In this document: positions 3,001 to 62,100 of the stretch, piece after piece
How the letters are laid out: every line of letters starts with the position of its first letter
Numbering within the stretch: the first letter of the stretch is position 1
Source: Asterochloris sp. CNOR1
Taxonomy: Eukaryota > Chlorophyta > Trebouxiophyceae > Trebouxiales > Trebouxiaceae
Reading direction: 5' to 3'
DNA length: 64,000 nt
Assembly (NCBI GenBank): GCA_963969365.1
Contig: OZ017750.1
Location: forward strand, 1,426,001-1,490,000
Program-made: the position numbers and the translations under genes
Notes under the pieces: model-generated
Told to the model about the DNA's origin: nothing
What the model saw: the letters and a program-made list of their open reading frames with translations, nothing else
The model's database searches: none

Positions 3001-5919
3001 GACTGCTTGTGCTCCTGCAGGTGCTCCTGTTTTGCACAATGGCCCGTGTGCTGGATGTGCTGGAGGACTACTTGACCTGGCGGGGTCTGCAGTGCCTGCG
3101 CTTGGACGGGGCCACTGCCAGCACGGAGCGGGGCGCCCTGGTGCAGGAGTTCAACAGGCCAGGTGGGGTGTAGCTCAGCCATTCATAAAAGCATGTGTAA
3201 CACATACACGGACTGGACAGGGCCTCTGCCGGCGCTGAGCAGGGTCCCTCATGCAGGGTTCCAGGCTGGGTGAGTGCAGCCAGGGGGCCTAGCTGAACGT
3301 GGGGTAAGCCCATGCCAGTGTAGAGCGGGGCAGCTTGATGCTGGACCTCCGATCAGTCAGGTGGGGGTGGCTGGGCAGTGGTAGATTGTATTTGTGCTCA
3401 CACCAACGGCGACAAAAGCTTGGTACCCTGCTAGGTCGGGCGGGCTCAGATGGCACCAGCATGAGGTTTGAAGCCAGCAGGCGTGAGTCTCAAGTCAGAG
3501 GCCGGGCCAGGTGAGGGCACATGTGCCCAAAGCAGGCCAGCAGGTCGTCCAACACTTCAAGAGGCCATGTAGCTTTGGATGGACATCACTTAGGCGCCAT
3601 GAAGGACCAGCGCAGCTGTCATCAAGCCAGTATGGCAATGACCTTGCGCTTCCACCAAGCTAGCTCTCACATTGGGGCGTGCGTGAACGGCTGGAACTGC
3701 GTACAGCATCCATGCTGTGCAAGGTTTTGTACGGTGCTCTGCTGCAGGGTCGCCATTCTTCATCTTCCTGCTCAGCATCCGGGCTGGCGGCGTTGGGCTG
3801 AACCTGCAGGCAGCAGACACCGTGATCATGTATGACACGGACTGGTGAGCACTCCGAGACAATTCATTTTGGGTCTGCGTCAGAGCTTGAGAGGTTGCCT
3901 TGGTTTACGTTATTCAGAGGAACTGTCAGTTGACTCAGGGGGAGGGCAAACAGCATACACAGCTCATAGGGCACATCTGCAGCCTGCCTTTGCTGTTGCT
4001 CATCCTCATGCTCGACACCCTTGCTGCCTCCTGCAGGCGCCCACATACTACATTGCAGGCCCAAGCAGAGCAGCAGGGCGGTTCCTGCAGCACCACCAGC
4101 TGGCCAGCTGCTTTTCATGCTGCCAACCTGGTGACCTTGGTGCGACTGCAGCGAGCTGCATCAATCTCCAGGATGACCCTTGAGCTCAAGCAGGAGCTCC
4201 TTTGCTGGGCCAGCACAACCAGCAGATGCTTGCAGGTTGCGCTCACCTGTGGGTGCATGCAGGATTTGCAAGGTCACCCTGCTGCAGGCCCAGGCTAGGC
4301 TGGAGCAGTGTGCATGAGATGCTGTTCCTGCCTTCTGCAGGAGTCCACATGCCAGCCTACAGGCCCAAGCCGCTGCAATACCACCTGTCAGTCACCTGAT
4401 TGTTTCTTTGCCCCAAGGGTGGACCAGCAGCCGGGGAAAGAAGGGGCCCAGAGCAAGGGTGCTTTTGCTGCATCTTCAGTCCACCAGCTGCTGGTGCGCT
4501 ACCCCACAAGAAAGCGTTGTGTTGTTGCGCATGCAGGAACCCCCAGATTGACCTGCAGGCCCAGGCCAGGGCCCACAGGCTGGGGCAGCGCAGCGATGTG
4601 CTGGTCCTGCGACTGGCAACCGCCAACAGCATAGAGGAGCAGATCATGAGCACGGCTGCCCAGAAGCGCAGCCTGGCAGACCGCACCATCACAGGTGGGC
4701 CTGAAAAGCCTGCATGCCCGCCTTTCCAGCTGCTGCTGTTGCTCACAGGATGGCACAGCATGTAAGAGCACCTGGTGGCACCCATGCGAGCCCAAGCCCA
4801 GGAGCCGTGCACCAAGTACTGTATAGCATGTGCAGGCCACTGTACTGTGGACGCTGCACAAGCTTCAGAAGGCAGGGAGACAGCAGCAATGAGGAGGCTG
4901 ACAGCCATGCTATGGTGCAGGTGGGTTCTTTGACATGGAGACCAGCAGCGATAAGCGCCGGCAATTCCTGCTGGAGCTGGTCCAGGAGTCTGCCAATGTA
5001 CACGCTGCGCAGCCTGCTGGGGATGCCAGCAATTTGAGCGATGCCGATGTGAGTCTGCGCTTTACACCAGTACACTGAGCCTTGCTTTGAGGGGCATATG
5101 TCAGCTCATGGCATGATAGCCAGCTGCAAGCTCTTGGTGCATGAGCCTGTTGTGCCAGAGGCTTTGCGGCCTGAAGGCTGACCTGGATCAGCTCTTTAGG
5201 CTGAGTCGCAAGCTGCATGTGCTGGGTTTAACATCAAGCCCACAAATATGCCAAGGCAGAAGCCTGCATGCTGCTGATGTCAGCACGCTATACAAGTTGC
5301 TGAGATGAGCTCATGTCAGCTCTAAAGGCATTTCTGCCAGGTGCACATTTTGTTGCTGACAGAGAGTGGCCTATTGAGAGATGCTCCGGTTCCAGCTTTA
5401 CTGCTAGCTGCACAGACTGATGCTGACGCAAGTGCGTGGCTCATATGACACATGCTGGAGCTGCTTCACCTTCTTGGCCCTGATTTTCAGCACAGCACAG
5501 CTGACTTTGCTGAGTTGGTAGTGTTGGGGCCAGCATGCATCAATACCACCACGTTGACTACCAGCTGCATGTCCTGGAGGCAAGATGCGATTATCACCTG
5601 TCCCTGCAGCTAAACCAGCTGTTGGCCCGCAACCCAGAGGAGCTCAGGTTGCTGACTGCGAAAAATGGCAAGGCCACAGAGCAACAGGCTGAGCAGCCGC
5701 CCCAGGTGAGATGTAAGCTCAAGCTTGCTGCTTGATGATCGCCTAGCTGGAGCTCTGCCTTGTGACCCTCCAGCCCCTCTCCTGCAGTCTGCACGCCTCG
5801 TCACAGAAGCAGAGGCACAGCACATCATTGCACTTGTGCAGCAGGCTGCCAGGGGTTCAAGAAAGGAGGATTTAGAGGCCCTTGGCAGGGGCAAACGACG
5901 GCGCAAGATGGCAGCCTGA
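33..5919 (+). CDS. SNF2-family chromatin-remodelling ATPase (BRM/SYD/MINU-like), 5' end outside window
   Basis: Catalytic subunit of a SWI/SNF-type nucleosome remodeller; it would use ATP hydrolysis to move nucleosomes in the nucleus. Exons: 33-95, 174-194, 445-624, 964-about 1161, 1405-1498, 1715-1886, 2297-2457, 2575-2701, 3021-3162, 3748-3844, 4537-4694, 4921-5048, 5610-5705, 5788-5919. Visible motifs in order: ADEM-GLGKTVQ (Walker A, on a 21-nt exon), VVDEAH (motif II), [51 protein letters not shown] and QARAHRLGQ (motif VI). A SnAC-like segment follows ([14 protein letters not shown], then [12 protein letters not shown]). The protein ends in a basic KRRRK tail without a bromodomain, which resembles plant MINU more than BRM (inference). 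The exon ending at 1161 appears to use a weak GC donor. The introns at 2702-3020, 3163-3747, 3845-4536 and 5049-5609 hold no gene; 3845-4536 carries exon echoes. Confidence 0.93.
4031..4375 (+). repeat. Three decayed copies of the following exon's 5' edge inside an SNF2 intron
   Basis: The exon starting at 4537 begins with a TGCAG acceptor, then CCCCAGATTGACCTGCAGGC and a GCCCAGGCC run. Diverged versions of this order (TGCAGG, CCCACAT, a short gap, TGCAGGCCCAAGC or ACAGGCCCAAGC) lie at 4031-4070 and 4331-4375. A third partial copy at 4281-4309 matches the inner part of the exon. None reads as an in-frame exon. Confidence 0.7.

Positions 5920-62100: not shown

Follow-up and report, generated by a model that had tools for sequence, protein, structure and literature searches.

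Decayed copies of exon edges in the introns of a 64-kb, apparently green-algal window

Tandem genomic duplication as a route of intron gain reportedly goes back to Rogers (1989) and to Gao and Lynch (2009), and tandem exon duplication yielding mutually exclusive exons is reportedly the subject of Kondrashov and Koonin (2001). In the first process, according to the available parts of two papers, an exonic segment bearing AGGT is duplicated and a new intron results (PMC3443670, PMC4974935). Direct repeats that measure 4-30 bp, 11.4 on average, and lie no more than about 40 bp from intron splice sites are read as insertion footprints in the accessible text of PMC11782384. Introners have been proposed as a mass origin of intron sequence, with green algae among their hosts (PMC9860276, in part). 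A comparison involving Chlamydomonas regards the driver of intron length as likely ancient and leaves it unnamed in the portion available (PMC8226300). Why compact green-algal genomes have long introns is the question on which the present observations touch.

We analysed one stretch of DNA, called the window below, in whose introns decayed copies of the adjacent exon edge, here termed echoes, had been predicted. Within the window the pattern is real, statistically strong and well controlled, and its cause is likely a simple one.

Window, gene models and edge tests

The window comprises 64,000 bp with 58.9% G+C, and this single 64-kb stretch with its sequence-only gene models forms the evidence base. 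Genes were modelled ab initio with a self-trained, splice-aware hidden Markov model, which gave 148 exons and 145 introns (median intron 246 bp), the donor consensus CAG/GTGAGC and the acceptor consensus CTGCAG/G. Genes with Pfam support include an SNF2 helicase, two expansin-like stretches, an M3 peptidase, a GYF gene, a TPR gene with EF-hand, a MYB gene, a subtilase and a P4-ATPase. G+C content, splice consensus and gene content together suggest a green alga. In the models, adjacent genes run together into three blocks, with little consequence for tests on introns. The P4-ATPase, SNF2 and subtilase proteins align to solved structures over most of their length; a few insertions in these alignments were taken for miscalled small exons and were dropped or corrected. 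The hand edits guided by these protein alignments took out four small exons, shifted one acceptor and, for the splice-core test, shifted one donor. Neither a tRNA scan nor an Rfam scan of the window gave matches, and single-exon protein queries against viral contigs (two) and genome contigs (one) returned no relatives.

Each 3' edge query consisted of 10 bp of intron and up to 60 bp of exon, and each 5' edge query was built likewise. Every edge was aligned to the remainder of its own intron, the controls being length-matched stretches of introns at distances above 5 kb. The first run, on uncorrected models, covered 126 of 145 introns (114 and 116 for exon-only queries), those above 1000 bp or too short being excluded. 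The second covered 106 of 141 introns, of 60-1000 bp and with flanking exons of at least 25 bp. In the final run 26 predicted exons shorter than 36 bp were removed, and 111 of 115 introns, of 60-1200 bp, were searched. An additional control paired exons of at least 90 bp (79 and 79) with the intron on their other side, the exon head being compared with the following intron and the exon tail with the preceding one.

Exon-edge copies in the introns

As the original prediction had it, introns hold decayed copies of their own exon boundaries: in the final run, 23 of 111 introns contain a direct copy of an adjoining exon edge that is significant at 5% FDR, as do 22 of 106 at the same threshold in the earlier model set of the second run. 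Both types of edge are copied, as had also been claimed. At p<=0.01, 3' edges were matched in 17 of 111 introns and 5' edges in 8 of 111 (1.1 expected each); the second run at p<=0.001 gave 15 and 7 of 106 (0.11 expected each). Before any hand edits, 16 3' edges and 10 5' edges among 126 beat all 100 controls, with 1.2 expected, while reverse-complemented edges did so in 2 and 2 introns; the main signal predates the hand correction of the models. Reverse-complemented edges stayed near chance in the final run (1 and 3 of 111 introns) and slightly over expectation in the second (2 and 1), and their matches sit in introns 60111-60720 (both edges) and 32703-32403. Exon-only queries, when run against the final models, were matched in 8 and 6 introns at p<=0.01, against 1.1 expected.

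The proposed check, alignment of introns to their flanking exons with controls, was carried out window-wide and gave an excess for adjacent exons, mostly in direct orientation. The own edge scored 27-74 in the 22 listed introns, and the best of 60 non-adjacent edges scored 20-29 in each. The claim that echoes keep to the adjacent exon and to the intron side was borne out as well, for other-side introns gave 0 of 79 and 0 of 79 matches at p<=0.01 (Fisher 9e-7). This is the sharpest of the controls; distance explains part of it, since the other-side intron sits farther off, and the 50-400 bp range in which an excess of repeats occurs (see below) still covers many such introns.

Chance similarity arising from a TGCAG-rich composition and a common splice consensus is a very improbable source of the signal. 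CTGCAG does belong to the acceptor consensus, and the weaker cases at 27713-28402 and 61252-61472 and the CAG-rich one at 42120-42266 are mostly motif or low complexity, but length-matched far introns, reverse-complemented edges, exon-only queries and other-side introns all fail to reproduce the result. Still less credible is an assembly artefact of duplicated haplotypes or misjoined repeats, given that most copies diverge by 10-35%, far beyond sequencing error.

Table 1. Exon-edge echoes and related repeats in the window; the last column gives the interval of the original prediction in which the echo was recovered
Position	Strand	Feature	Source	Match	Remarks	Interval predicted
3214-3280, 3308-3372	+	two 5'-edge echoes, SNF2	exon tail 3103-3174	54/72, 47/67		
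4021-4066, 4157-4217, 4255-4299 (within 4021-4331)	+	weak 3'-edge echoes, SNF2	acceptor 4536/4537			
23122-23281	+	76-bp tandem x2.1		75% matches	enters GYF-gene exon starting 23263	
31141-31167	-	5'-edge echo, TPR gene	31248-31274	24/27		
32975-33025	-	3'-edge echo, TPR-gene intron	32866-32916	42/51	period 109	32950-33030
33672-33727	-	3'-edge echo, TPR-gene intron 34250-33606	33557-33611	44/56		33662-33832
33766-33830	-	second 3'-edge echo, TPR-gene intron 34250-33606		45/66	hairpin arm with 33870-33935	33662-33832
40058-40136	+	3'-edge echo, MYB region	40176-40254	79 bp, 70%		
46296-46348, 46359-46435	+	two 5'-edge echoes	exon tail ending 46153	40/54, 53/79		
47033-47274	+	degenerate ~36-bp acceptor-like array			copies at 47033, 47067, 47145, 47181, 47249	47002-47293
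48310-48355	+	second echo, subtilase intron 48257-48583	exon 48620-48648	93% identical (48327-48355)		48325-48462
48370-48461	+	3'-edge echo, subtilase intron 48257-48583	48559-48648	68/93	period 189	48325-48462
58109-58140	+	5'-edge echo, P4-ATPase intron	58019-58050	25/32		58111-58140
58787-58837	+	3'-edge echo, P4-ATPase intron	58912-58963	40/52	acceptor motif degraded	58797-58840
59205-59284	+	5'-edge echo, P4-ATPase intron	59063-59141	62/80	period 142	59205-59259
59549-59584	+	3'-edge echo, same P4-ATPase intron as 59205-59284	59901-59935	29/36		

The echo at 59205 is the clearest of the cases originally cited (Table 1). Its source comprises exon tail, donor and intron head, and the copy retains AAG/GTAGGG; a homology reading of 12 residues against solved P4-ATPases moves the donor 4 bp upstream of its model position, to 59103/59104. 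The 3'-edge echo of this intron points to an acceptor, placed by homology at 59907/59908, that was missing from the model. In SNF2 the protein alignment is consistent with an exon ending near FNRPG, the exon whose tail is echoed twice. The array at 47 kb terminates in the exon edge 47285-47311. The interval predicted there does contain five copies of the acceptor unit, together with the exon edge and one further, marginal copy. Its copies score 32-38 (62 for the query copy itself) and the exon edge 26, where the 99% null best is 24. The model exon 47080-47115 appears to be a member of this array. Gene finders can call echoes as exons, and seem to have done so at 33792-33824, a small predicted exon that is probably a miscalled part of the echo at 33766; leaving it out fits the spacing of the TPR repeats.

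Other details of the prediction fared less well. At 23122-23274 the 76-bp tandem does reach 19-33 bp into the exon, but the intron is absent from the list of significant edges. The echoes within 4031-4375 exist but are weak (62-71%), and the pair cited there is itself intron-intron, 4021-4066 also matching 4325-4370. The similarity at 61214-61450 is mostly acceptor motif within a 21-bp tandem, and 49856-49895 holds no significant echo (p=0.22). The small predicted exon at 49857-49889 (VDIFGACGG) resembles the preceding exon tail (VDIFAPG); it may be genuine, or else an echo miscalled as an exon. Instead of up to eight copies, the masked edge search gives no more than three and the array at 47 kb has five.

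Orientation, distance and distribution of repeats

Comparisons independent of the gene models gave a similar preference for near, direct copies. Among 1,583 chunks of 80 bp, a score of 40 was reached by 1.1% of near direct comparisons, 0.25% of near reverse-complement ones and 0 of 6,332 far ones; at a score of at least 34, far chunks gave 0 direct and 1 inverted match in 3,167. Self-blastn found 34 direct pairs within 700 bp at scores of at least 30, where far pairs predict 2.55, and at scores of at least 28 pairs 50-400 bp apart are in excess (44 versus about 3.3), those farther apart are not. Near loci are direct rather than inverted by 41:5, 24:4 and 15:3 at scores of at least 30, 34 and 38. 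Direct orientation therefore prevails strongly, not absolutely: the prediction that copies are always direct is right for most loci (41:5), and fails for a TPR echo that has an inverted copy at 33870-33935.

Strong inverted near pairs number three, at two places (51773-51908 and 33773-33935). The first holds two overlapping, near-perfect hairpins with arms of about 47 and 34 bp and loops of 19-23 bp, within what is predicted as a 1.9-kb intron but may be intergenic sequence, with the subtilase gene on one side and the P4-ATPase gene on the other. The second is a hairpin in the TPR intron with arms of about 66 bp, one of which overlaps an exon-edge echo, so that exon-derived sequence is present in inverted form too. 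Another inverted pair in the GYF gene (24223-24249 and 24849-24875; 27 bp, 85%, 626 bp apart) has one arm crossing a predicted exon border.

The near direct pairs (n=32) comprise 15 that span a junction, 13 that are intron-intron and 4 that are purely exon-intron; one of them (51773-51887) overlaps the first hairpin at 51773-51908 and may belong to it. Copies are thus not always of edges, as had been claimed, and duplication happens away from junctions too, as the 13 intron-intron pairs indicate. A strong pair of this kind lies at 8604-8764 in the expansin region (48 bp, 85%, 114 bp apart), with no predicted exon edge involved. By circular shift, 8.2 junction-spanning pairs would be expected (P=0.005), and at scores of at least 38 there are 10 of 14 versus 5.0 (P=0.006); pure exon-intron pairs are fewer than the 8.1 expected (P=0.05), and intron-intron pairs are as frequent as expected (14.6). 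Few exon-intron and many junction pairs are what is expected if the duplicated unit must contain the junction.

The surplus of junction pairs could also mean that duplication is targeted to junctions, through co-transcriptional breaks, R-loops, or slippage or microhomology mediated by CTGCAG. This would be a stronger form of the tandem model and not its opposite, and we consider it unlikely. Intron tails (6 of 123) and heads (10 of 124) do beat all 60 controls more often than the 2 expected, a weaker signal than that of the edges. Far direct pairs, however, are junction-enriched as well (0.226 versus 0.144) through shared splice motifs, copies with a conserved exonic partner stay recognisable for longer, and the intron-intron pairs sit at the shift expectation. 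The junction preference is inseparable from motif sharing and from the bias towards a conserved partner, and the observations are read most economically as short duplication arising generally, with selection acting as a filter.

Echoes are unevenly spread, with echo introns making up 4 of 50 in the SNF2-expansin-M3-GYF block (33-29190) and 19 of 61 in the rest (29710-63941; Fisher 0.004), and none between 4.6 and 18.4 kb, in the expansin-like genes. This unevenness between genes argues against a uniform genome-wide habit. Near direct pairs cover 1,825 of 47,741 noncoding bases, or about 4%, and the visible share of such repeats in intron length is accordingly small. Echo introns are longer than others (360 versus 257 bp, P=0.003; 428 versus 271 in another comparison), an excess that we do not count as proof since longer introns offer more room.

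Anatomy of the echoes and their probable origin

The top 23 echoes are 67-100% identical to their source, the highest and lowest values belonging to short or weak cases. Their periods run from 28 to 352 bp, with 18 of 23 between 50 and 200 and a median of 111 bp. Of these echoes 19 span the junction, a share that is raised by the presence of the splice motif in the query; of 14 echoes found by exon-only queries, 5 extend ungapped to within 12 bp of the junction.

If an echo arose by tandem duplication, the spacer between an acceptor echo and its edge should resemble the sequence upstream of the echo, and for a donor echo the sequence downstream. Sixteen of the 19 junction-spanning echoes could be examined for this, and the predicted flank was the better match in 11, the worse in 1 and tied in 4. 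Combined by Fisher's method, the residual homology gives 3.4e-5 on the predicted side and 0.52 on the other, in support of the tandem origin that the original prediction had put forward. The residual signal is absent from some single echoes, including the 5' echo at 3214. Abutting or overlapping copies are clear in the arrays at 23122 and 47033, and intact full-length units are not seen elsewhere; often the recognisable similarity does not exceed half the period (at 32975, 51 bp out of a period of 109). A complete tandem unit is thus seldom preserved, and the account must be supplemented by decay, by indels or by copying of a non-tandem kind.

Non-tandem copying could take the form of template switching during replication or repair, acting over short range, mostly direct and sometimes inverted, with intronic copies surviving. 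We give this explanation a minor chance. It would accommodate the short similarities, the 9 of 14 exon-only echoes that fail to reach the junction ungapped, and the two places with strong inverted near pairs (three in all), one of which involves an echo. It does not predict homology on the flank that the tandem model specifies, nor the empty other-side introns, nor the shortage of pure exon-intron pairs, and direct loci exceed inverted ones about 6- to 8-fold at scores of 30-34.

Mismatches in the 23 echoes are distributed nearly evenly over codon positions (0.22/0.18/0.24), much as in the intron part (0.21), and gaps fall within the exon-derived part of 5 of 16 strong spanning echoes. From the near-even mismatch the copies look dead, beside a constrained partner, though some single echoes may still read open. 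These figures make it decidedly improbable that echoes function as alternative or mutually exclusive exon ends or as selected decoy splice sites. Of the 19 junction-spanning echoes, 16 retain the GT or AG, and the scores of 14 of 19 echo sites exceed the 5th percentile for sites in use, but the alignments that keep GT or AG had the splice motif in the query, and in the 5 near-junction echoes found with motif-free queries the core identity (27/37) is no better than in the rest. Selection on echo splice sites was considered on the strength of the 16 of 19 and rejected, the signal being lost with core-free queries.

We think it probable that short tandem duplications straddling splice junctions produced the echoes and lengthened the introns while leaving the protein unchanged. 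This we infer from the directly observed echoes, with their prevailing orientation, sidedness, distance, flank homology and near-even decay across codon positions. Short tandem duplications, with units mostly of 50-200 bp and some up to 350 bp, would arise continually. Where the unit straddled a splice junction, the intron would gain a second splice site and exon edge, and splicing would presumably pick the copy lying farthest out (for acceptors the 3'-most, for donors the 5'-most), giving the same mRNA. With the mRNA unchanged, such a duplication would be nearly neutral and able to reach fixation, and the inner copy, now intronic, would decay into a direct echo on the intron side. Duplications internal to exons would alter the protein and be purged, those internal to introns would be retained as intron-intron repeats, and every retained event would lengthen its intron by about one unit, in a ratchet-like way. 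A bolder version, in which tandem duplication in this lineage has its hot spots at splice junctions and introns grow outward in a one-way ratchet that is a main source of intron sequence, is doubtful; if true, it would account for the unusual length that introns reach in some green algae.

Comparison with known systems

A frequent, directional and protein-neutral gain of about 110 bp per splice border would be a concrete mechanism whose events can be counted, and simple alignment of the decayed copies that genomes already contain would serve to test the idea of intron growth. The weight of the finding hinges on the whole genome and its relatives showing the same pattern. In the open-licence literature, as far as its texts are available and including PMC12636532, we found no description of frequent decayed exon-edge copies lengthening existing introns, and within those limits the echoes represent a known mutation type in a role for which no prior description was found.

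Introners, in the available text of PMC9860276, are alike across loci, whereas the echoes resemble the neighbouring exon; introner-like sharing between unrelated loci within the window amounts to 6 far direct pairs at scores of at least 38 and 0 at 44 or more. With the repeats of PMC11782384, as far as that text is available, the echoes share an above-chance occurrence of direct repeats around intron/exon borders, but they are mostly 20-90 bp long, mostly 50-200 bp apart and one-sided. Matching repeats at both ends of an intron were found in 4 of 106, by a test that is blind to repeats of 4-10 bp.

Tandem exon duplication, going by the accessible part of PMC6071210, is similar in that a tandem duplication within a gene takes in some adjacent intron. 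It differs in that whole exons are copied and kept in use, whereas here an edge is copied and the copy decays. The coding constraint expected of mutually exclusive exons is not seen in the echoes, given the near-even codon mismatch and the gaps in 5 of 16. For novel intron positions in Drosophila, ascribed to sliding or tandem duplication, coding tandem duplication with proto-splice sites has likewise been inferred, in few cases and at new positions (PMC2891723, in part); the additions seen here are frequent and are made to existing introns.

Intron gain by tandem duplication is, with tandem exon duplication and the short direct repeats at intron ends, among the nearest models. The donor and acceptor borders of one intron are alike in 4 of 106 introns at p<=0.002, with 0.2 expected, three of the four lying in the MYB region. 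Similarity from border to border is therefore above chance and not general, and the link to intron gain that had been suggested is a weak one. As far as the accessible descriptions of that process go, the two have in common duplicated splice sites, exon-derived sequence within an intron and an unchanged protein; in the introns studied here, it is the border of an existing intron that is duplicated, and the intron grows.
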